Shown here: positions 11,275 to 35,036 of the stretch, one piece after another
How positions within the stretch are numbered: position 1 is the first letter of the stretch
How the letters are laid out: every line of letters starts with the position of its first letter
Assembly (NCBI GenBank): GCA_016188575.1
Contig: JACPHN010000239.1
Span: 1 to 39,686, forward strand
Source of the DNA: Candidatus Schekmanbacteria bacterium
GTDB lineage: Bacteria > CSSED10-310 > JACPHN01
Direction: 5' to 3'
DNA: 39,686 bases
The notes under the pieces: model-generated
What the model was told of the DNA's origin: nothing
The model's database searches: none
The model's input: the letters and a program-made list of their open reading frames with translations, nothing else
Translations under genes and position numbers: made by a program

Positions 11275-13275
11275 GTGGCCGCGTTGCCAGGCGAGGGGTC
11301 GGTGCGACGTCTGCCGCTAAGTCTGCTGCTGGCCGCGATCGTTGCAGGGCTGGTCCTGTCCGTGCTCGCGTGCATCGTGCCAGCGGGTCTGGGCATTCTG
11401 GAGGAGCTCGCGGTGGAGAACGCGAGGACGCGGGTCGAGCTGGCGGCAACCTCGGCGGCGGAAGGCGCGACGGAGTACGCTACGGAGGCGGAAACCGGCG
11501 CGCGGCTGCTGGCCGAACGGCCGACGCTGCTCGGGCTGGTCGCGGCCGGCGAGAGCGCACCGCTCGGCGCTTTCCTTGAGCGCTTCCGGCTCACCGCCGG
11601 GCTTGCCGGCTGCGCGATTGTTCGCGGCGGCGTCGCGGTGGCCGCGACACCAGGGCCGATCCCGTGGAGCGAGCTCGGGCAGGTCGAGGGCCGCCAGTAC
11701 CGCACGCTCGGTGCACGGGCGGCCGCGGTGGTTGCCGTGGCCGCGCTCGATCTCGAGCTCGAGCCGCAGGCCCGGGCAGTGGTCGTGCGCTGGCTGGACG
11801 ATCAGCTCACGGCCCGTTTGAGCGCGCGGCTCGGTTTGCCCGTCCGTCTGGAGCTGGGCTTGGCGGCGGCGGAGACGAGCGGGCCGCCCGACGCCTTTGT
11901 TGCCCGGCGCACGCTGGGAGGGTCGCCCGAGGCCCCGGTACGTGTGGTCGTTGCACTCTCGCGATCTGAAGTGTCGGCAACGCTGCGGCCGCTGCGCCGC
12001 ACGTTCTTTGTCATTGCGTTAGGCACTGCCGCGGTCGCCGCCGCGCTTGGAGTCTATGCGGGTCACAGCATCGCGCTGCCGCTGCGCGCACTGGGCGAAG
12101 CTGCGGAGCGGATCGGCGCGGGAGATCTCGTCACGCCGATCAGGCCGGGGCGAGGCGCCGAGGTCGGCGCCCTCGCGGGCCGGATGGAGGACATGCGCCA
12201 GCGCCTGCGCTCGCTCACCGCCGAGCTGCGCCGGCGAGAAGAAGAGGCCCAGGCGCTCCTGGGGAACATGGTCGAAGGCGTATTCGCGGTGGATGCGGAG
12301 CGGCGCATTCAATACCTGAATGCCCAGGGGGCGGCGCTGCTGGGCGTGGAGGCAGCGGCGGCGCGGGGTCGGAGTTGCGGGGACGTCTTGCGCGCGCTGA
12401 ACGCGAGCGGAGCTCGACCCTGCGAAGACGAGTGCCCCATCGTCCATGCGCGCTCCCGCGGGAGCTCACGAGCCGTCGAGCACCTGCACCTGGCACAAGG
12501 GGAAAGAACGGTAGTGATCACGAGCGCACCCCCGTCCGGCTCCACACAGGTCCAGATCATTCGGGATGAAACTGACATCGAGGCGGCACGGCGGGCGCGC
12601 GACGCCGTGCTCGCGAGCGTCTCTCACGAGCTGAAGACGCCGCTGACGGCGCAACTGGCTTCCATTGAGTTGCTGCGCGACGGGCTGCGCAGCATGCCGA
12701 CGGCGAGTGCCGAGCAACTTGTGGGAGCCATGGAGCGCAGTACGCTGCGCCTGGTGCGGCTGGTCGACAATCTCCTTGAAAGCGTCCGCATCGAAACCGG
12801 GAAAACGGCATTGCGGCGGGTGCCGGTGGATCTCGAGGTGGTGGTAGAGGAAGCGGCGGCCATGACCCGGCCGCTACTGGACCAGCGCGGGCAGACGTTG
12901 AGCGTCGAGCTGCCTGAGCCGCCGCTGGAGATCGCCGGCGACCCGGGGCAGCTCGTACAGGTGCTGGTCAACGTCCTCGCCAACGCGAACAAGTTTGGGC
13001 CAGACGGTTCGACGATTCGCGTGGGCGGTGAAAGGAGCGGCGGCTGGCTTTCGGTGTGGGTCGACGACATGGGGCCCGGCGTGCCGGCATCGCAATCGAG
13101 CTCCATCTTCGGTCAGTTTCAGCGCCTCGGCGGTGCCAAGGCGGCCGGCATGGGCCTGGGCCTGTGGATCGCCAAATCACTGGTGGAGCGGCACGGCGGA
13201 CACCTTGGCGTGTCTGCGTCGCCGCAGGGCGGCGCCCGCTTCACGCTCACGTTCCCGCGGGGAGGAGCTGCGTGA
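11275..13275 (+). CDS. Membrane sensor histidine kinase with extracytoplasmic, HAMP and PAS domains
   Basis: 666 residues from GTG 11275. Order: transmembrane helix 1 (about 14-38), an extracytoplasmic sensor of about 200 residues, transmembrane helix 2 (FFVIALGTAAVAAALGVYAG, about 243-263), HAMP, PAS (about 325-430), HisKA with phospho-acceptor His451 in ASVSHELKTPLT, and a HATPase with N box NVLANANKFG, DDMGPGVP and GMGLGLWIAKSLVERHGG. The PAS carries three cysteines (Cys368, Cys383, Cys387; the last two in PCEDECP), a pattern that could bind a metal or sense redox. The gene lies seven bases after cysW and overlaps the response regulator by four, so a role in sensing sulfate, its status or transporter activity is likely but not proved by sequence. 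Confidence 0.9.
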   Translation: MAALPGEGSVRRLPLSLLLAAIVAGLVLSVLACIVPAGLGILEELAVENARTRVELAATSAAEGATEYATEAETGARLLAERPTLLGLVAAGESAPLGAFLERFRLTAGLAGCAIVRGGVAVAATPGPIPWSELGQVEGRQYRTLGARAAAVVAVAALDLELEPQARAVVVRWLDDQLTARLSARLGLPVRLELGLAAAETSGPPDAFVARRTLGGSPEAPVRVVVALSRSEVSATLRPLRRTFFVIALGTAAVAAALGVYAGHSIALPLRALGEAAERIGAGDLVTPIRPGRGAEVGALAGRMEDMRQRLRSLTAELRRREEEAQALLGNMVEGVFAVDAERRIQYLNAQGAALLGVEAAAARGRSCGDVLRALNASGARPCEDECPIVHARSRGSSRAVEHLHLAQGERTVVITSAPPSGSTQVQIIRDETDIEAARRARDAVLASVSHELKTPLTAQLASIELLRDGLRSMPTASAEQLVGAMERSTLRLVRLVDNLLESVRIETGKTALRRVPVDLEVVVEEAAAMTRPLLDQRGQTLSVELPEPPLEIAGDPGQLVQVLVNVLANANKFGPDGSTIRVGGERSGGWLSVWVDDMGPGVPASQSSSIFGQFQRLGGAKAAGMGLGLWIAKSLVERHGGHLGVSASPQGGARFTLTFPRGGAA

Positions 13276-14000
13276 AGGTGCTCGTCGTTGACGATGACCC
13301 GGAGCTGTTGCCGCTGGTCGCTTTTGCGCTGCGGCGCGAAGGCTATTTCGTGCTCGAGGCCGCGACCGGCGAGGCGGCGCTGGCGACGGTGACGAGCGAA
13401 CGGCCGGATCTCGTGGTGCTCGACGTCAATCTGCCGGGAATCGATGGCTTCGAGGTGTGCCGGCGCATCCGCCGTGGCGGCGACAGTACGCCCGTGCTGA
13501 TGCTTACGGTTCGCGGCGATGAGCTGGATGAAGTGACCGGGCTAGACGCAGGAGCGGACGACTATCTCACGAAACCATTCAGCCCGCGCACGCTGCTGGC
13601 GAGGGTGAGGGCGCTATTGCGTAGGGCCGGGCATGAGCGCGCCCGGCGGGTCACGGCGGGTGCTGTGGAGCTCGATGCGGAGCTGCACGTGCTCCACATC
13701 ACAGGCAAATCTCCGGTGCGTCTCACGCCGCTGGAGTTCCGGCTCCTGCAGCTCTTGGTGATGCAGGGGGGCCGCGCGGTGCGCAGCGAGCGCATTCTTC
13801 TACACGTGTGGGGAACGCACGGGGCTGCGGACCGCCAGCTTCTCAAGCAACTGGTTCACCGCCTGCGACAGAAGATCGAGGAGGATCCTTCGACACCGCA
13901 GCGGCTGCTCGCTGTTCCCGGTCTGGGGTATCGGTGGGAGAGCGCTCCTTCTGAAAAAACGGAGCGCCCTCCTGGGGAGGATAGCCCGGCGCCGGAATAA
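13272..14000 (+). CDS. OmpR/PhoB-family response regulator
   Basis: 242 residues starting at GTG 13272, which overlaps the kinase stop (GTGA), so the pair is translationally coupled. Receiver domain: acidic pocket VVDDDPE, phospho-acceptor Asp51 in VVLDVNLPG, switch Thr in MLTVRG and Lys in DYLTKPFSP. The C-terminal winged-helix DNA-binding domain is clear (LTPLEFRLLQLL, VRSERILLHVWG, LLKQLVHRLRQKIE, VPGLGYRW). It is the cognate partner of the preceding kinase. The dyad at 6467-6487 upstream of cysA is one candidate target. The last 20 residues are a polar tail overlapping the terminator. Confidence 0.93.
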   Translation: MKVLVVDDDPELLPLVAFALRREGYFVLEAATGEAALATVTSERPDLVVLDVNLPGIDGFEVCRRIRRGGDSTPVLMLTVRGDELDEVTGLDAGADDYLTKPFSPRTLLARVRALLRRAGHERARRVTAGAVELDAELHVLHITGKSPVRLTPLEFRLLQLLVMQGGRAVRSERILLHVWGTHGAADRQLLKQLVHRLRQKIEEDPSTPQRLLAVPGLGYRWESAPSEKTERPPGEDSPAPE

Positions 14001-25882: not shown

Positions 25883-25894
25883 GGAGAGTCTTCC

Positions 25895-28800
25895 ATGGCT
25901 GGCGCCGCGTACGATCGAGAGCTGGACGCGATTGCGGATCAGCGGTCGCCCGTGCCGGGTCTTCCCTACCACCATGCGCATCGCCGCGCCGCTCTCCCGG
26001 TCGCAATCGATGGGTACCGGGTGCTGCGCGAGCTTGGCCGGGGCGGCACCTGCGTGGTGTATCTGGTCAAGGATGATGCGGGCAATCCATTCGCGTTGAA
26101 GATCCCGTACCCGGCGGTGAGGAAGCCTCGCATCATTGGCCGGCTCCTCGAACGTGAGGTGCGGCTCCAGCAGGCGCTGGATCATCCGGGCATCGCGAAA
26201 ATCGTGCGCGTGGGCGCGGTTGGTGAGCTCCCGTACCTGCTGCTCGAATACGCGGATGGTGGCGACCTGACGGAGCTGTGGGGCCATTGCAAGGCGATGC
26301 GCACGACGGGGGAACGGATCATCGAGGCGCTGAAGCTGCTCGAGCAGGTGGCGGGCGCGATCGGATACGCCCACGAGCACGGCGTCCTCCACCGCGACAT
26401 CAAGGCGCGAAACATCCTGGTAGTGGGCGGCGAGCTCAAGGTGAGCGACTTCGGCCTGGCGGTGGCGATGGCCGGCGACGAGGTGCTGCACTCGCGCACG
26501 GCGACGCGGGACAGGATGGGCACGCTCGGGTACATGGCGCCGGAGCTGGAGATCAGCGCCAAGAACGCGACGGTGGCGTCGGACGTTTACGCGCTGGGAG
26601 CGATGGCGTGTTGGATGGTGACGGACGAGGTGCCGTGGGCGGACGACCCGGACCGGCCGTATCGCCCGCTGCTGAGCACGCTGCTGGGTAAACACGCGGA
26701 GTCGCGCGTGCACGCGGTGGTCGAGGAGACATTTCTGGGGTGGATCGCGGAGCAACCCCAACGTCGCCCGGCCAGCGTGGCGGTGATGCGGGAGCAGATC
26801 GCCAAAATGCTGCGCTTGGGGACAGCGGGGGTGCTGCAGAGCAGCACGGCGTCGGCGTCGATGCTGGCGGAAACCGTCGCGACGCAGGGACCACCGATCG
26901 CCACGGCCGAGTCCCGGCGCCGGATCCAGGTGAGGACAGACCCGCGGGTGATCCTGGTGCCGGAGCTTGTCGTGCATCGCGGTCGGATCGGGCCGGTGGC
27001 GGTGGAATCGTTCATTGGGCAGGGCGGTTTCGGGCAGGTCTTTATGGGGCGGCTCGATGGCGAACTGGTGGCGGTCAAGCTTGTGCCCGCGACCGACGAC
27101 CGCGCCGCGGCGCGCTTCCGGGACGAGATGCGCGTCCTGTCGAGCTTTACGCACTCCAACATCGTCCGTATGCTCGACGTCGTCCACGACCCCGACCTCG
27201 GCGCCGTCGGGCTCGTCATGGAGTACGTCCCCGATAGCCTCTCCGCGTGGCTCGCGGACCCGGAGCGGAGCGCGCAACTGAAAGGCCAGGTCGCGACGCG
27301 GCTCTTGCGCGATGTGCTCGCGGCGCTGGTCTATCTCGAAACCTCCGGCGTGCTGCACCTGGACCTCAAGCCGGCAAACATCCTGATCGCGCAGCGGGAC
27401 GGCATACTGGTGCCGAAGATCGCGGACTTCGGCCTGGCGCGCCAAGCCGCGGCGGCCGGTGGGGGCATCGGTGGCACGCTCGCCTGGGCCGCGCCCGAGA
27501 TGCTCGCGCGCCTGGTGCCTGCCTGCCGCGAACGCCATCCGGACTTCGCCGCCATGATGCCGTCGTCGCGCAGCGATTATTACGCCTTCGGGCTCATCGC
27601 CCTGCATATCTATGCCGGGCGGGTGCCGTTCGAGGAGGGCGACCTCGAGGCTCGGTTCACCTGGATGCCGGACATCGAGGACGCGATCGGCGCGCCACGA
27701 GACGTGCAGCCGGTATTGTTCCGGTGCCTGAACCCGAACCCCGAGCGGCGGCCGGCGTCGGCGATCGAGATCCTCGCGACCTGGGACGAGGCACTGGGAG
27801 ACGACAGCACGGACTGGCCGGCGATCATCGCGAGCCACCTGCGGGCGCCGGCGCTGACGAGCGCGGCGCGCGAGGTTGCGAACGCGGTGGTCGAAGCGCT
27901 GCGAGAGGGCCCGGGCGCGCGGGTGTTCCTGCGCGGGCCTGCGGAGAGCGGACGATCGCGGTTGCTCGGGGCGATCGCGAGTCTTGCGGCGATCGAAGGC
28001 GTTGCCGGAGGCCTGCGCGTGCTGGAGGGCGACGCGGTGTGCGACGATGCCGGTGGTGCGATCGTAGCCGCTGGCGAGGCGCCTCCGGCTGGTTGGCAGG
28101 TACTCGGCATCCCCGCGCTCGATGCGGCCGCCGCGCGCGACCTGCTCGGGGCGGTGTTTGGCGAGGTCGTGGATGTGGACGACCTGGCGGCGAAGCTGGT
28201 GCGGGCGGCCGATGGCAAGACGGGACTTGCGGTGCGCCTCTTACGGGCGACGGTGTCCACGGGTATCGCCAGGCGCACCGAAACGCTGGCCTGGTACCTT
28301 GATTGGGTGGAAATGGACCGGGCGGCGCTCGCGGACGGGGAGATCATCGCGCGGCGCGAGACCTTGGTAGCGGGACTTCCCGCGGACGCGCGTCGTCTGC
28401 TCGGAGCGCTGGCGCTGGCCGCGGGTCCGGTGGACCGCGAGGGGCTTGCCCAAGCGCTGGGTCTGGATCATCCGGACTGGTGCTTGCCTGCCGTGCTGCT
28501 CGCGGACACGACAGCCGAGCTCGGCGAAGCGTTCCTGGGCGCGTCGCTGCGCGCGCGGCCGCCAGAGGGGCTCGACCGGGCCGCCATCGCACCGCTCGTC
28601 GAAGCGCGCGACCCCGAGCGTGCCTTCGAGCTCTACGCCGCCGCTGGCTCCGCCCACGCGCGACGCGAGGCCGCCGGTCTCGGCGTCTGGCTTCTCACCG
28701 ACAGCCACGAGCGCGAGATGCCCGCGTATCGCGTCATCGAGATCGCCGATCGCTGCGAGCAGGACGGCCTGTGGCTCGGTGCCGCGGATCGATTCGTCGG

Positions 28801-30208
28801 CCAGCACGCCCGCGCCTGGACGTACTTCGAGTTTCGGGACAGCAATGCTCCGGGGCTGCACGATGCCCTCGACAAGCTCGAGGCCATCGCCCGCGAGCTG
28901 GGCGATCCGGTTGCCGCGGCACGCGCCCAGCTCGTCCGCTGGGCCGCGATTCCCGTGCCGGCGCCGCGCGACATCAGCGCAGTGGACGCGGTCGTGGACG
29001 TGCTCATCCAGGCGGGCGATGAGTATCTGCGCTTCGAGGGCGAGTTTGGGCGCGTCTTCGCGCTGTGGCATTACACGCTCATGCCCGACGCGTGGCGGCG
29101 GTTCATGGCCGCGTTGGAGACGTTCGACCTGGCGCGCGTGCCGCTGCGGCTCTTCGTCTGCGCGCTCAACTATCTCTCTGCATTCGCCACGACCACCGAA
29201 CAAATCGAAGGCTTGCGGCCTTTCTGTATCCGTGCTCACGATTCAGTTCCTCTCAATGCAACCAGGGCACGTAAAGCACTGGCGATGAGCAAGGCCGCAT
29301 TAGATGCAGCAGATGGCTGTTATGATAACGCGCACGTAGGACTCGCAGCGGTGTGTAAATGTATCAAGCGCGATGTAGAACCATATACATGGAACAACGC
29401 ATACAAATACGCACTTAGTTATGCACCACTGGTTGGTGACATGACCTGTGCTAAACGATTTTCACGTATTTTGCATCATTTTACTAAAGACGATAATAAA
29501 CGGCAGTCAGTTATTGTTATAATTGCAGCGGAGATTCTGCGACTTGAGGGATCTTATACAATAGCAGTGCAATTATTGAAGAATGTGTTGAATGCCAGTC
29601 CCATAATTACAGATTACGTCGCCGTTATGAAAATCGTTATCGCTTGCGATATAGGCAATGAAATCGAGCTCGATGTTCGACAACTAGATCACGCCGCAAC
29701 GCAAATTCGCAGTCTGGCCTGGTTCACCTGGGCGCGCATCCTGCTGCGCCAGCGCCGCCTCGAAGAAGCCCAACATGCGGCGGAGATGGCGCTGGCGGTG
29801 CCCGTGGAAGCCACCGAGGACCTGCGTTTCAACGCGCTGACAGTCGCGGCTCGCGCCGCGGTTGCGTTCTGGCGACGCGATCGCACTCCCGAGATCCGCA
29901 TGAAAGCGTTGAGCTGGATCGCCGAGATCCCGGACGCGGGTCGCTGGTATTCGGTGCGGCGCGTCTTGCTGGCGCACCTGGAGGACGACCCGGCGCGCGC
30001 CGGGACCTGGTTGCGGGAAGCGCTCGTCTTTGGGCTGGAATCCGGCATGCTGCCTTTTGCCCTCGAGGCCGCGGTGGCGCTCGCAGAGCGTTTTCCTGGC
30101 GCCGGGTACGACGAATGTTGCCAACGTCTCGTGAACGCCATCGCCGCCGACCTCGCGCCCGAGCACAAAGCCATTTTCCTTGCCTCCTGGAGGACGATAT
30201 GCGCCTGA
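25895..30208 (+). CDS. Giant tandem serine/threonine kinase with ATPase-like and helical-repeat regions
   Basis: 1437 residues from ATG 25895 (GGGAGAG upstream). Kinase 1 (about 38-310) is complete: glycine loop LGRGGTCVVY, Lys69, HRDIKARN with Asp168, Asp185-Phe-Gly and MAPE. Kinase 2 (about 365-630) has GQGGFGQVF, Lys395, DFG at Asp511 and APE, but His488-Leu-Asp490 in place of HRD, so it lacks the RD arginine. Then comes a P-loop-like GPAESGRS (681-688, Arg replacing Lys) in a shortened STAND/AAA-like ATPase without a clear Walker B. The rest (about 860-1437) is helical repeat, TPR-like. This resembles PknK-type regulators with a second kinase added. Bases 29215-29700 are markedly AT-rich inside the repeats. 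It overlaps the next gene by ten bases. Confidence 0.9.
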   Translation: MAGAAYDRELDAIADQRSPVPGLPYHHAHRRAALPVAIDGYRVLRELGRGGTCVVYLVKDDAGNPFALKIPYPAVRKPRIIGRLLEREVRLQQALDHPGIAKIVRVGAVGELPYLLLEYADGGDLTELWGHCKAMRTTGERIIEALKLLEQVAGAIGYAHEHGVLHRDIKARNILVVGGELKVSDFGLAVAMAGDEVLHSRTATRDRMGTLGYMAPELEISAKNATVASDVYALGAMACWMVTDEVPWADDPDRPYRPLLSTLLGKHAESRVHAVVEETFLGWIAEQPQRRPASVAVMREQIAKMLRLGTAGVLQSSTASASMLAETVATQGPPIATAESRRRIQVRTDPRVILVPELVVHRGRIGPVAVESFIGQGGFGQVFMGRLDGELVAVKLVPATDDRAAARFRDEMRVLSSFTHSNIVRMLDVVHDPDLGAVGLVMEYVPDSLSAWLADPERSAQLKGQVATRLLRDVLAALVYLETSGVLHLDLKPANILIAQRDGILVPKIADFGLARQAAAAGGGIGGTLAWAAPEMLARLVPACRERHPDFAAMMPSSRSDYYAFGLIALHIYAGRVPFEEGDLEARFTWMPDIEDAIGAPRDVQPVLFRCLNPNPERRPASAIEILATWDEALGDDSTDWPAIIASHLRAPALTSAAREVANAVVEALREGPGARVFLRGPAESGRSRLLGAIASLAAIEGVAGGLRVLEGDAVCDDAGGAIVAAGEAPPAGWQVLGIPALDAAAARDLLGAVFGEVVDVDDLAAKLVRAADGKTGLAVRLLRATVSTGIARRTETLAWYLDWVEMDRAALADGEIIARRETLVAGLPADARRLLGALALAAGPVDREGLAQALGLDHPDWCLPAVLLADTTAELGEAFLGASLRARPPEGLDRAAIAPLVEARDPERAFELYAAAGSAHARREAAGLGVWLLTDSHEREMPAYRVIEIADRCEQDGLWLGAADRFVGQHARAWTYFEFRDSNAPGLHDALDKLEAIARELGDPVAAARAQLVRWAAIPVPAPRDISAVDAVVDVLIQAGDEYLRFEGEFGRVFALWHYTLMPDAWRRFMAALETFDLARVPLRLFVCALNYLSAFATTTEQIEGLRPFCIRAHDSVPLNATRARKALAMSKAALDAADGCYDNAHVGLAAVCKCIKRDVEPYTWNNAYKYALSYAPLVGDMTCAKRFSRILHHFTKDDNKRQSVIVIIAAEILRLEGSYTIAVQLLKNVLNASPIITDYVAVMKIVIACDIGNEIELDVRQLDHAATQIRSLAWFTWARILLRQRRLEEAQHAAEMALAVPVEATEDLRFNALTVAARAAVAFWRRDRTPEIRMKALSWIAEIPDAGRWYSVRRVLLAHLEDDPARAGTWLREALVFGLESGMLPFALEAAVALAERFPGAGYDECCQRLVNAIAADLAPEHKAIFLASWRTICA
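29215..29700. other. AT-rich block A inside the tandem kinase gene
   Basis: GC falls to about 30-42% per 60 bases (for example 18 of 60 at 29461-29520) while flanks exceed 60%. The frame stays open and encodes helical repeat residues about 1108-1268. Codons end mostly in A or T, unlike the rest of the gene. Confidence 0.85.
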
Positions 30209-31605
30209 GTCGCGCTTGCCTCATGTTCGGCCTGGTCTTCTGCCTGCCAGTGGTGTCTTGGGCGGTGGGCGCGGTCACTGCCGAGGTGGATCAAACACTC
30301 GGGCTCGCTGCGTTGCGCCAGCAGACCGGGCTCACAGGAGCTGGCGTTACCATCGGAATAATAGGTGAAGGCATCTATGACTGGCGAAACTACATTGAAT
30401 CTGGCGATTTGCCTGCTGATATTAGATTTCTTGATTGGCAAGAAGGAAATGGCCTTAATCTAGGTCATGTACAAGTGATTCATGATATTGCACCAAACGC
30501 CGAATTACTTTTCGGTGTATATGGTGGCGGTCCGTCAGATACGATAACGCAAGATATGGTTTCCCAGGGAGCAAATATTATATTGGTGATGAATCATGTA
30601 GAACCTTACACAAATCTTTACGAAGACACATGGCGGAGTTATACAAGAGAGGTTGGCAAAACATCTCTAATCATATCGCCGGCGGGCGATTATGGTAACG
30701 CACATTACCGTGGCACGTTTACAGATAGTGGCAACGGTGAGCACGATTTCGGTAACGGCAATACCGTCGTTGAAATACAAACTCCGCCTGGATGTAGCAC
30801 ACGTATGTTCCTTGGCTGGAGCGAAACGTTTACCACGCCTATCTATTCTGACTACCGTATGAGATTATACACGTCAGATCACCAGCTTTGGAGTGAAGTC
30901 ACATCAGGAAGTTATCCTCTTGCCTCTGTTTGGGATACGGAACATACAGAAACGATAATCTGGTATGTTTCCGTGTGGAAGGCGGCAAACGCGCCCGTTC
31001 TACCGTTCGATGTAAGGGCCAAGTGCGATTTCCCAGGGCCGGTGGGCGGTCTTTCAACAACGATTGATCCAGCGTATCGGATCGACAAAGGCTCGATTGT
31101 CGACTTCGGTGCGCTACCCGAGGTGCTGACGGTGGGCGCGTTGGATCAGACGACCGAGGTGGCACCAGGCCGGTACGCGGTGCGTCCCTACTCCGGGCGC
31201 GGTCCCGCCGAAATCACCATCCCGAGCACCGAGGTGCGGCCCAAACCCGACATCATGGCGCCGGATTGCCAGAGCGTGTACGGCAACAACGGTATAGAAA
31301 CGGGCACATTTGTTGATTGCGGTTCATCGATCAGCGCCGCGGTGGTGGCAGGAATCGCGGCGCTCGTCCAGGAGAAGCAAGGTTTTGTGCACACGGTGGA
31401 CATCAAGGCGCTGCTGACGGGCACCGCTGCCGATCTCGAGGCCCCCGGCTTCGACGGCGTGAGCGGCTACGGGCAAATCGATCCCGCTGCTGCACTGGTG
31501 CTGCCCCGGGTGCCGGTCAGCGCCGCCTGGACGGTGCTCGCGATGCTACTTGGTGTCTCGGCTTCGATTCGCGCTAACGTCTCCACCGTTGCCATTCGGA
31601 GTTAA
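30199..31605 (+). CDS. Exported subtilase-like protein, probably catalytically inactive
   Basis: 468 residues. ATG 30199 follows GGAGG and overlaps the end of the kinase gene, so the two are coupled. A signal peptide (MRLSRACLMFGLVFCLPVVSW) leads a subtilisin (S8) fold: GAGVTIGIIGEGI corresponds to the 'GVTVAVIDTGI' strand but has Gly56 where the catalytic Asp should be; VIHDIAPNAELLFG matches the region after the catalytic His, but the His itself seems absent; GSSISAAVVAGIAALV keeps the Ser (377) yet lacks the usual Pro-His. It is therefore likely a pseudo-protease used for binding. The C-terminus has a VPVSAAW-hydrophobic-Arg end like IPTL/VP-type sorting anchors. Bases 30350-30960 are AT-rich. 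The 3' end overlaps the converging gene by 32 bases. Confidence 0.75.
   Translation: MRLSRACLMFGLVFCLPVVSWAVGAVTAEVDQTLGLAALRQQTGLTGAGVTIGIIGEGIYDWRNYIESGDLPADIRFLDWQEGNGLNLGHVQVIHDIAPNAELLFGVYGGGPSDTITQDMVSQGANIILVMNHVEPYTNLYEDTWRSYTREVGKTSLIISPAGDYGNAHYRGTFTDSGNGEHDFGNGNTVVEIQTPPGCSTRMFLGWSETFTTPIYSDYRMRLYTSDHQLWSEVTSGSYPLASVWDTEHTETIIWYVSVWKAANAPVLPFDVRAKCDFPGPVGGLSTTIDPAYRIDKGSIVDFGALPEVLTVGALDQTTEVAPGRYAVRPYSGRGPAEITIPSTEVRPKPDIMAPDCQSVYGNNGIETGTFVDCGSSISAAVVAGIAALVQEKQGFVHTVDIKALLTGTAADLEAPGFDGVSGYGQIDPAAALVLPRVPVSAAWTVLAMLLGVSASIRANVSTVAIRS
30350..30960. other. AT-rich block B inside the subtilase-like gene
   Basis: About 35-40% GC per line (21 of 60 at 30421-30480, 22 of 60 at 30541-30600), starting some 50 codons after the signal peptide and fading near 30960, with GC-rich sequence on both sides and no break in frame. 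Confidence 0.85.
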
Positions 31606-32623
31606 TGGAACCGGTTTCGCCCGGATTTTCAGCGCGCTCAAGGAATTTTGAGTTTGGATGGAGAGCGTCAACACCCCATATCTGTGGTTCATCGTCATAA
31701 CCATCTCTATAATGGCGAATTGTTTTTATTAGAATGCCGTCAATGTTGTATATCTTTTCGTCTGTGTACGGTATATTAAGTGATGCGCATGTTTTGATGC
31801 TCCATCCGCCAACACTTTCACCATCTGTTGCCCACCAGGTAGCAATGATAACATCCTTCACAGACATTGGGTTCGTGTCTTCCTCGTTGTAAACGTGATA
31901 GTTTGCAACTTTTTGTGGTCCGATGATTTTTGGTGTATCATAAGGCTGCGCCGTATATGGTTTTCCATCAAGTTTGAAAGCAACCGTGCTCCCTGCATAG
32001 CCTAGAAAGTTCTCAAAGCCCATAGGATTCAATATCCACGTCTTACTATTATTTGGATCGGCATATACGCCATCCGCAAACGGAATGCCGTATCGCGGTG
32101 TCAGATCGGTCCATCTATATCCAGAAATACCCTTGATCTCGCTGGCATAGACCGTGACGGACCAGGCATTGGCTTTCCGCACCCCGGCGTTGAGCTGCCC
32201 GCTCCAGGTGTTCTTCCAGTTCAAGTTGACATCGCACGAGTGATCCGCGGCGGCCCAACCGGCGAGGATCAGGTACGGTTTGGTGGCGGAGTATTGTGCA
32301 CCGGCGATGTTGCGGTAGCCTGCTGAGTCCGTGGTATAGGTGCCGAGCCAGGCGCTGGGGCTGTACACGAGAACAGCACATCCGCTGCACGGATACCAGG
32401 CGTTGTTATACCAGCGCAGGACGCGCACCTGGAAGACGGTGGGCGCGCTGGCAAGGTCGGTGGCGGCCTCGTCGCCCGAGCGCATGGTGGCCGTGCCAGA
32501 ACCGGCTCTGGCACCGCGCAGGAACACGTTGTCCTTGATCGGTGGGGGGCCGGCAAAGGCCGTTGCCGCAACGAGCGATAGCCAAACAGCAGCTCCGAGC
32601 GCAACAGCGCCACGTGTTCTCAT
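31574..32623 (-). CDS. Secreted protein of unknown function
   Basis: 349 residues. ATG 32623 overlaps the stop of the upstream TPR-like gene (ATGA), so they form an operon. The signal peptide (VALGAAVWLSLVAATAFAG) is clear. Residues about 60-120 look like a small beta-sandwich (VFQVRVLRWYNNAWYPCSGC, TDSAGYRNIAG), as in carboxypeptidase-regulatory or Ig-like folds. The remainder has no motif I recognise; it is aromatic and Asn-rich (WILNPMGFENFLGY, IIATWWATDGESVGGW). Cysteines occur as CSGC, SCD and TC. The 3' half of the gene (31620-32140) is AT-rich. Its stop lies inside the converging subtilase-like gene. Confidence 0.7.
   Translation of the reverse strand: MRTRGAVALGAAVWLSLVAATAFAGPPPIKDNVFLRGARAGSGTATMRSGDEAATDLASAPTVFQVRVLRWYNNAWYPCSGCAVLVYSPSAWLGTYTTDSAGYRNIAGAQYSATKPYLILAGWAAADHSCDVNLNWKNTWSGQLNAGVRKANAWSVTVYASEIKGISGYRWTDLTPRYGIPFADGVYADPNNSKTWILNPMGFENFLGYAGSTVAFKLDGKPYTAQPYDTPKIIGPQKVANYHVYNEEDTNPMSVKDVIIATWWATDGESVGGWSIKTCASLNIPYTDEKIYNIDGILIKTIRHYRDGYDDEPQIWGVDALHPNSKFLERAENPGETGSINSEWQRWRR
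31620..32140. other. AT-rich block C inside the secreted-protein gene
   Basis: About 37% GC at 31741-31800 and similar in neighbouring lines, covering the last half of the minus-strand gene, whereas its first half (32160-32620) is GC-rich. The frame remains open throughout. Confidence 0.8.
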
Positions 32624-33411
32624 GAAGGTCTCCTCGTGTCCACAGTGGATTGAGCGAGCAATTGGCTCGCAAGACGGGGATCGCTCCCCGCGAAAAACAG
32701 CGCCGCGTTGATGGCGATGCGCGGATCGTCTGGTGCGGCGTTGATGTGCGTGTGCCAGAGGCGCTCGGCCTGCTCATAGACGAGCGGGTCGTCGCCATAG
32801 ACGAGATTACCCCAGGTGGAGCCGGCAAAGGGCAGCTCGGGGTGGTGCTCGGTGAGCCAGAGCAGGTGCTCGTTGCGGTGGTCCCAGTCGCCGGGGCCGC
32901 CGGGATGCGCGGCGTAGTATCCGAGCAAGCGGACGCGGGCGTGCGGGTTGTCCGGAGCGGCGGTGAGGCGCTGCTCGATGGCGTGCACTTCATCGGCGCC
33001 GAGCGTGGCGCCTTCCTGCGCCAAGGCGTCGAGCATGCCGCGGGTCTCCGCCTGGAGCTGCTCGGCCTGGCGTTTGGTATCTTCGAACAGTTCCCACTCG
33101 GTCTGCGAGAAGGGACTTGGGGATGGCGAAGGTTGGGTACTTGCGGGCGTGGCCACAGGACGGTCTTTGCTGCGGGTGGCTGGATATGCTGTTGCCACGG
33201 ATGTAGCCGAAGCCGGGGCGCGGCTGTCGACGCCAGTATTCAGGTGGCGTGCGGGGCGCTCGGGGAGCTCCGCGGATACCTGGGCTGACTGGAGGCGCTG
33301 AGGCAGGGCATGCGGATCTGCCTGGAGCCTGCGCGGGGCTATCCAGAGGATGGCTCCGAGGATGGTGGCGATGGCGGTGAGACTGATGAAGGCAAGGCGC
33401 AGGTACGGCAT
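32620..33411 (-). CDS. Membrane-anchored helical-repeat protein
   Basis: 263 residues from ATG 33411, preceded by GGAAG; an in-frame TTG at 33429 is a weaker choice. One hydrophobic helix near the start (LAFISLTAIATILGAILWIA) anchors it. A Pro/Ser/Thr-rich linker (about 35-95) leads to a coiled helix (EDTKRQAEQLQAETRGMLD) and then TPR/Sel1-like repeats containing TAAPDNPHARVRLLGYYAAH and NAAPDDPRIAINAALFFA. These appear in extracytoplasmic assembly or scaffold proteins. The stop overlaps the ATG of the secreted protein gene, so the pair probably act together. A sigma54-like sequence immediately upstream would place the transcript start only three bases before the ATG. Confidence 0.7.
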   Translation of the reverse strand: MPYLRLAFISLTAIATILGAILWIAPRRLQADPHALPQRLQSAQVSAELPERPARHLNTGVDSRAPASATSVATAYPATRSKDRPVATPASTQPSPSPSPFSQTEWELFEDTKRQAEQLQAETRGMLDALAQEGATLGADEVHAIEQRLTAAPDNPHARVRLLGYYAAHPGGPGDWDHRNEHLLWLTEHHPELPFAGSTWGNLVYGDDPLVYEQAERLWHTHINAAPDDPRIAINAALFFAGSDPRLASQLLAQSTVDTRRPS

Positions 33412-33424
33412 GTTCTTCCAAATG

Positions 33425-33441
33425 AGCAATAATCATGCCAA
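33425..33441 (-). promoter_or_regulatory. Sigma54-like -24/-12 sequence before the TPR-like gene
   Basis: Minus strand TTGGCATG-ATTA-TTGCT, with GG and GC ten bases apart and 12 of 13 consensus positions. Its predicted start (about 33414) is almost at ATG 33411, so either the message is leaderless or this match is not used. Confidence 0.4.
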
Positions 33442-33689
33442 TGCTATCATTTCAATCCTTTGCTCTATTACGCGGCTACAGGCCAAGCATAGCAACCGCC
33501 ATGCGAGACGTCAATGTCACACCTGTACCTCCATGTCCACCATGTTGACCAACCACGCCACGCCAGCGTTCCGGGCAAGGCCCGGCGGAGCAGATAGTGA
33601 GGGCGGGAGCCGTTGCCCTCGCCTGCGAACCGCTGTATGAAGGGGCCGACGAACGGGTTCGCTGTCGTGTTAGCGTTGGAGGATCGATC

Positions 33690-35036
33690 ATGGCTTCTCG
33701 GGACCGGAGGTTCGCGCGAAACATCGGGACGCGGCGGCATGTTGCCGCCTTCGCGGTCTGGTCTGCGCTCGCTTTTCTGCTCTGGATGGCTCATCCAGCA
33801 AGCGCGGCAGACACCAACTGGTCCGGCGTTCAAGCGCTGAGCTCCGACTATACCGTCAACGCCGGAGATCGCCTCATTATCGCTCCGGGCACGCGCATCC
33901 AGGTCGCGGCCAGGGCCGAGTGCCCGACCGGGACCGCCGACAACGAAACCCTCCCGGACTGCTGGGAGATTATTGTACGCGGCGAATTGCTCGCCGACGA
34001 TCCGACGGGAGGCGCCATCGTCTTCTCCTCCAATGGCACGCCAAGCGACTGGGGCGGCATCGCCATTCGCGATGGCGGCAAGGCGACGTTGCGCGGCGTC
34101 ACCATTCGTGACGCCAAGGTCGGCGTGCTGGCGGACGACGCCCACGGCACTGCCGAATCTCCGAACGTCAACATTGCGTTCTCGAGCTTCGACAACAATC
34201 AATACCACGCCATCTGGGCCTCCGGCGAATCCCACTCGGCGATCGCCAACAATCTGCTCCGCGACCATCCGGCGCAGCTAGACGGTTCCGTAATCAAGAT
34301 CTATACGAGCGGCGACGCGTCTACGGTGGTCAAGAACAATCTCATATTCGACAATCAAGAGGCGGGCATCACCGTCCAGGATTGCTCGCCGAGCATCGTG
34401 AACAACACCTTCATCGGCGGCGAGTATGGCCTCTTCTTGAAGGGGAGCACGGCGCTTCCCGATGTGCGCAACAACATCTTCTCCGAGTACACCTTTTTCG
34501 GCATTGGATGTGACGCCGGCTTTCTGGGGAATCCGGACCCGATTGTCGAGTTCAACAACGTCCATTCCACGGCCGCGACGTCCAAGCCGATAGGTTTTGG
34601 CGACGATTACTGGCAGCCTTGCGGCCTCGATTGTCCGACTACGGAATCAAACCCCTCCGCCTGTGGTGCCTTCACGGGTGGCGCCAACATCAGCACAGGC
34701 GGCGCCGGGCTGTTCGTAGACGCGGCGCAGCACGACTATATGTTGCCTGTTGGTAGCCCTAGCGTGGACGCGGGCGACCCCAATTTGCAGTACACCGATG
34801 CGTCCTGGGTGGTCGGAAATGGTAATGAAAACCGTAACGACCAGGGCGCATACGGTGGGCCGGGCGCGAGCCCGCGGGCGGGTGCCGCAGTGCCGCTGCT
34901 TTCCGCCGCCGCCGCTGCCTTGTCGCTCGGCGCTATCGGCAGGCGGCTGCGAACGCGGCGAATGAGCGCGCGGAGCCCGGGCGCCGGCAGCACAGGCCGC
35001 TGGCGTGCACTGTTTTCGTTTCGGCAAACGGCTTGA
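33690..35036 (+). CDS. Secreted right-handed beta-helix protein with C-terminal membrane tail
   Basis: 448 residues; ATG 33690 is six bases after TTGGAGG. A basic start and hydrophobic run (AFAVWSALAFLLWMAHPASA) form a signal peptide. Repeated 'xNNxF/Ixx' coils (FDNNQYHAIW, IANNLLRDH, VKNNLIFDNQEAGITV, IVNNTFIGGEYGLFL, VRNNIFSEY) show a parallel beta-helix of the pectate-lyase/NosD type. GSPSVDAGDP near 360 is a common motif in choice-of-anchor beta-helix surface proteins. The C-terminus has a hydrophobic stretch followed by GRRLRTRR, a sorting or anchoring tail. No catalytic residues can be assigned; a polysaccharide-binding or lyase role is possible. It is followed 17 bases later by the GAF-GGDEF gene. 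Confidence 0.85.
   Translation: MASRDRRFARNIGTRRHVAAFAVWSALAFLLWMAHPASAADTNWSGVQALSSDYTVNAGDRLIIAPGTRIQVAARAECPTGTADNETLPDCWEIIVRGELLADDPTGGAIVFSSNGTPSDWGGIAIRDGGKATLRGVTIRDAKVGVLADDAHGTAESPNVNIAFSSFDNNQYHAIWASGESHSAIANNLLRDHPAQLDGSVIKIYTSGDASTVVKNNLIFDNQEAGITVQDCSPSIVNNTFIGGEYGLFLKGSTALPDVRNNIFSEYTFFGIGCDAGFLGNPDPIVEFNNVHSTAATSKPIGFGDDYWQPCGLDCPTTESNPSACGAFTGGANISTGGAGLFVDAAQHDYMLPVGSPSVDAGDPNLQYTDASWVVGNGNENRNDQGAYGGPGASPRAGAAVPLLSAAAAALSLGAIGRRLRTRRMSARSPGAGSTGRWRALFSFRQTA

Follow-up and report, generated by a model that had tools for sequence, protein, structure and literature searches.

AT-rich blocks probably mark variable segments of a recombining four-gene kinase module in a Candidatus Schekmanbacteria genome

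The window, meaning the whole stretch of 39,686 nucleotides analysed here, is contig C98 of a 9.2-Mb genome that is 94% complete and spread over many contigs (275). It contains a module of four genes, in the order dual Ser/Thr kinase, subtilase-like protein with a degenerate triad, convergent secreted protein and membrane-anchored partner. The kinase (1437 aa; 25895..30208, forward strand) has two Pkinase domains, matched in two stretches (E 4e-76), which assign it to the bacterial Ser/Thr protein kinases, and a long C-terminal region that weakly resembles TPRs (TPR_2, E 0.011); its hydropathy profile revealed no convincing membrane segment. Defence-system models match the kinase domains, as they do generic kinases, and a defence-system subtilase model gave a weak match at the module. 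The second gene (30199..31605, forward strand) encodes a secreted subtilase-like protein with an N-terminal hydrophobic segment, and its score of 39.2 bits against a cut-off of 21.8 places it within Peptidase_S8. The catalytic Asp of the DTG/DN motif is absent, with GEG, GPG, GLG or similar in its place in all seven of the aligned copies, and the Ser of the triad has apparently also been lost from the copies on contigs C217, C85 and C110. Pseudo-subtilases such as the germinant receptor CspC likewise combine a subtilase fold with an incomplete catalytic triad, which in CspC is used for sensing, but the NCBIfam match to that family is weak, lying far below the family cut-off, and the gene context differs.

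The two remaining genes are encoded on the reverse strand. The convergent secreted protein (349 aa; 31574..32623) begins with a signal-peptide-like N-terminus and has neither a Pfam family nor a convincing sequence match in the PDB. Its N-terminal half resembles a transthyretin/CnaB-like beta-sandwich with a probability of 0.85-0.91 and an E-value of 0.03-0.07, the model being of low confidence (pLDDT 56). The gene upstream of it (32620..33429) encodes the partner protein of 269 aa, for which hydropathy predicts an N-terminal membrane anchor. There is a 10-bp overlap between the kinase stop and the start of the subtilase-like gene, the partner and secreted genes overlap by 4 bp, and the stop of the secreted gene overlaps the convergent subtilase-like gene by 32 bp; judged from these coordinates, the two head-to-tail overlaps and the convergent one suggest that the module genes form two coupled operons. 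Elsewhere in the window, positions 33597-35036 encode a secreted right-handed beta-helix protein, whose VPLL-type hydrophobic, arginine-rich C-terminus resembles a sorting signal, and the C-terminus of the subtilase-like protein is comparably hydrophobic.

A sequence-only reading of the window had singled out an AT-rich block at 31620-32140, and this block is real. GC content there is 0.440, compared to 0.646 in the remainder of the secreted gene (32141-32623) and 0.661 in the window, and likelihood segmentation by GC over the range 28500-33500 delimits the block at 31625-32139 (reverse strand; GC 0.433), corresponding to the C-terminal half of the secreted protein. Seven segments were kept in this analysis; an eight-segment model was better by 1 BIC unit, the extra cut setting apart the last 90 bp. 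Two further low-GC segments lie on the forward strand, at 29165-29689 in the solenoid-like C-terminal region of the kinase (GC 0.444) and at 30345-30969 inside the subtilase-like gene (GC 0.438). The idea of a mosaic composition in three consecutive genes holds insofar as each of them contains an AT-rich block. The more specific pattern of a GC-rich N-terminal half and an AT-rich C-terminal half applies to the secreted gene only, while in the kinase and subtilase-like genes the block lies within the gene, between GC-rich flanks. Between the three blocks lie two 655-bp segments with a GC content of 0.672 and 0.635; the identical length of these spacers and the similar block sizes (525, 625 and 515 bp) are probably a coincidence. 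At third codon positions, GC drops to 0.3-0.45 inside the blocks versus about 0.8-0.9 outside, and the blocks display GC1, GC2 and GC3 values of about 0.5, 0.4 and 0.35, respectively.

Scoring as a dip any 300 bp with a GC content below 0.50, we found that dips cover about 70% of the region 29162-32227 and that the rest of the window, outside the module, has none. The background was 1.09 Mb taken from elsewhere in this genome, a non-random sample picked by contig number and convenience, from which contig C100 (L038; 2954 bp, GC read as 0, apparently N) was left out. Dips numbered 0.27 per 10 kb in this sample, in which their coverage stayed below one half in every 3066-bp stretch. Relative to this background, the density in the modules was about 8-fold higher (Poisson p 2e-8).

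The module is not confined to the window. Relatives of the subtilase-like protein are encoded on contigs C153, C207, C217, C85, C224, C110 and C253; a further relative, on C252, is end-truncated. The secreted protein has clear relatives on C153, C207, C217 and C85, giving a family of five members, while C110, C224 and C253 carry an open reading frame at the equivalent convergent position whose product is weakly related in profile comparison. Homologues of the partner protein are found on C153, C207 and C217, and every copy is preceded by a kinase reading frame, although some of these kinases are not close relatives. The module thus occurs, whole or in part, on at least eight contigs besides C98, so that the sequence-only reading, which would have been undermined had the genome held no related sequences elsewhere, stands on this point. 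Overall, the genome carries at least eight or nine diverged module copies, a number that may be an underestimate because several contigs end inside the conserved kinase region, with 120-bp ends common to other contigs. The DNA of the kinase 5' region is mostly 84-93% identical among C153, C207, C110, C224, C253 and C252, and 89% identical between C98 and C217; past this 5' part, the similarity of the kinase copies falls abruptly, at a common position. The kinase frames at about 9611-10179 of C110 (L039) and about 1486-1840 of C252 (L052) are apparently frameshifted, reflecting either decay or assembly error. In addition, contig C52 (L161) contains, at about 764-2703, an internally deleted and frame-broken remnant of the kinase family, into which runs a frame judged by eye to be PIN-like. 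A scan of the contigs of other genomes for the module recovered three distant subtilases only, and the neighbours scanned beside one of these (L091) did not include a kinase.

Comparison of the copies indicates that the C98 module is itself a mosaic, with C217-type ends surrounding a 5.9-kb interior of C153/C252 type. The left outer segment (25888..27215, forward strand) is 89% identical to the C217 copy. Identity between C98 and C217 remains at about 0.8-0.98 up to about position 27215, with a single 60-nt window at 0.67, and then falls to about 0.5. For C153, the corresponding values are about 0.45 to the left of this position and 0.65-0.93 to its right. The left crossover zone (27155..27215, forward strand) lies inside the second kinase domain, where the C217 and C153 types are both at least 90% identical, and here identity to C217 passes from 0.95 to 0.48 and identity to C153 from 0.90 to 0.68 and higher values. 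The interior (27215..33150) contains all three AT-rich blocks. It gives way to a C217-like right outer segment (33146..33528, reverse strand; 79.5%) at a crossover within the partner gene, near 33150, where, moving inward, identity to C217 declines from 0.86 to 0.43 and identity to C153 rises from 0.4-0.6 to 0.64-0.94. Phylogenetic trees of the kinase group C98 with C217 over residues 30-435 (support 100/100), rejecting C98 with C153 (AU test p 0.0002), and group C98 with C153 over residues 450-1080 (support 100/100), rejecting C98 with C217 (AU test p 1e-5). These trees and tests cover the left switch, and the right switch is read from the identity profile. The nearest paralogue therefore differs by segment of C98, as in a mosaic of paralogues made by recombination, in which either the interior or the ends may be the overwritten part. 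These results support the proposal that a locus-level process underlies the composition of the three genes, given that they belong to one multi-copy module of which the window carries a recombinant between two types.

We also compared the blocks themselves between copies. For the pair C98 and C153, the identity of the encoded proteins is 0.36 in the kinase block versus 0.78 outside, 0.50 versus 0.78 in the subtilase-like protein and 0.50 versus 0.71 in the secreted protein, supporting a putative diversification of the blocks. Diversifying selection, also raised in the sequence-only reading, would be compatible with this fall in identity. Four-fold silent sites of the same pair match at 12 of 57 positions in the subtilase-like block (chance 0.25) and at 68 of 113 outside (chance 0.36; Fisher 1.6e-6), and at 15 of 41 positions in the kinase block (chance 0.27) and 249 of 391 outside (chance 0.41; p 0.001). 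The secreted gene displayed a trend in the same direction (13/39 in the block, 36/68 outside; p 0.07). In the kinases of C98 and C252, by contrast, silent matches did not drop significantly in the block (31/56, versus 131/211 outside) even though both versions are AT-rich there, indicating that being AT-rich is not enough to raise silent divergence. Since this block is normal against C252 and near chance against C153, the C153 version is the more distantly related one. Taken with the modest counts involved, this pattern would favour exchange or long separation of block versions over simple local acceleration. Just upstream of the block, the kinase tree does not reject a grouping of C98 with C252 (p 0.19), so that the indication for an exchange of the kinase block comes from how deeply the versions have diverged rather than from tree topology. 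Cassette exchange, as put forward in the sequence-only reading, is accordingly supported for the module interior and is probable for the kinase block, where it draws on the 56 silent sites compared between C98 and C252.

The position of the AT-rich sequence varies between copies. The C-terminal half of the secreted gene is AT-rich also in C153, in C207 and partly in C217. In the subtilase-like gene, C98, C153 and C110 share the AT-rich block, whereas the C207 copy is equally diverged there yet GC-rich, and C217 has its AT-rich patch further downstream in this gene, at residues 241-360. Being AT-rich in some copies and GC-rich or shifted in others, the low GC content is tied to variable regions rather than demanded by the protein, and the C207 copy indicates that divergence alone does not make a segment AT-rich.

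We consider it probable, at roughly 0.65, that the AT-rich block encodes the variable half of the secreted protein in a multi-copy, recombining four-gene module, and that the odd base composition marks the variable segments of this gene family. The copies can be seen to combine conserved segments related at silent sites, foremost the kinase 5' end, with strongly diverged ones. The three AT-rich blocks would likely be the segments of deepest and partly exchanged ancestry, in which homologous recombination no longer homogenises the copies, and they may stay low in GC, in a genome otherwise at 66%, either for want of recombination-associated GC gain or by importing AT-rich alleles. Across 240 windows of 60 codons from all copies, which are not independent, GC3 was higher the more closely a window was related at silent sites to the nearest paralogue (rho 0.48), with a mean of 0.67 at nil relatedness and 0.86 at high relatedness. 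The kinase accounts for this correlation; the subtilase-like gene shows it weakly, and it is absent from the secreted gene (rho -0.10, n 24). GC content is linked with recombination in bacteria (PMC4450053), and the GC3 trend observed here fits this link, repair bias itself aside. By our judgement, as opposed to calculation, escape from GC-raising recombination is the leading candidate for the cause of the low GC, at slightly less than even odds; its main competitor, import from AT-rich donors, is clearly less probable, and other causes take up the remaining weight.

In its full form, the import alternative holds that each AT-rich block was acquired horizontally from AT-rich donors by domain replacement and is drifting slowly toward host composition, which we regard as unlikely, at about one chance in four. 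The codon-position GC values of the blocks are compatible with such an origin, as values of this kind are typical of ordinary genes in a low-GC genome; the change-points of the blocks are fairly sharp, as import would give, and AT-rich patches lie at differing places between copies, as in the subtilase-like gene of C217. However, every block can be aligned as a homologue to the same domain of GC-rich copies, the same sub-regions are repeatedly AT-rich across diverged copies, and the secreted protein had no homologue in the 60 other genomes searched, the nearest of which belong to the same phylum only. Equally doubtful is divergence in place, through fast, relaxed or diversifying protein evolution together with AT-biased mutation at silent sites and no exchange of blocks. 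It would account for the fall in protein identity in the same segments, and AT-biased mutation is established as general in bacteria (discussed in PMC4450053). Against it, the kinase block lacks a significant silent excess between C98 and C252 while being near chance against C153, distances grow unequally between pairs of copies, and C207 has diverged without becoming AT-rich.

Two other explanations are far less probable than these. A chimeric contig from a metagenome-type assembly is made conceivable by the 275 contigs and by the copies that stop at the conserved kinase region with shared 120-bp ends, but the joins in C98 fall in copy-specific segments and within open frames, both flanks are present on the 39.7-kb contig, and other contigs have AT-rich blocks at homologous places. 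Slightly weaker still is gene conversion from silent cassettes in the style of antigenic variation, which the sequence-only reading had raised: variable blocks flanked by conserved sequence and the decayed kinase copy on C52 would suit it, but DNA and protein searches of the 94%-complete genome with the secreted-gene and subtilase-like blocks returned complete modules only, bar one insignificant match, the C52 remnant lacks the blocks, and the repeats expected at the block edges amounted to short, chance-like ones with no long repeats. A diversity-generating retroelement was also considered and rejected, as the search gave one partial RVT_1 match (65/205 positions), on another contig, and no near-identical second copy.

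A recombining module with variable segments shares features with several known systems. As in the concerted evolution of prokaryotic paralogues by gene conversion (PMC6053082), there are tracts related at silent sites, sharp edges and recombinant copies; here, however, similarity is maintained in only part of each module, other parts having diverged to saturation, with a base composition that sets them apart from the conserved ones. Higher GC accompanies evidence of recombination as in GC-biased gene conversion in bacteria (Lassalle et al. 2015, PMC4450053), although that process has been described as a statistical trend at gene level across strains, whereas the signal described here lies within single genes. 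Diversifying paralogous conflict systems of multicellular bacteria (PMC7159879) similarly occur as several paralogous systems per genome with a shared core and differing partner domains, and have kinases and TPR-like parts in common with the module; no MoxR, vWA or tubulin core was found in the module.

From domain content and the co-located variable blocks, we infer that the kinase may respond to a signal at the envelope or surface in which the two exported proteins, subtilase-like and secreted, take part, and that the variable blocks could set the specificity of each module copy. More speculatively, and with considerable doubt, the copies might form a repertoire of recognition modules, each joining a homogenised kinase end to a swappable interior with co-adapted kinase, pseudo-subtilase and secreted-ligand blocks, such that new specificities would arise by whole-interior exchange and low GC would be the footprint of the segments left unhomogenised. 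If this is correct, GC mosaics within genes could reveal variable, recognition-type segments from single genomes and without strain comparison, and a little-sampled phylum would own a combinatorial system of kinases and pseudo-subtilases. In addition, the effect of recombination on bacterial GC, and whether it is to raise it, could be examined inside single genes of the module, given that alike and unlike segments adjoin in many copies.

AT-rich sequence was also observed at an additional site in the genome. On contig C5 (L056), a 1.4-kb AT-rich stretch at 12479-13864 (minimum GC 0.38) fills an open reading frame of 505 aa without a Pfam match, and a second AT-rich stretch lies close to it, in a sugar-transferase gene.
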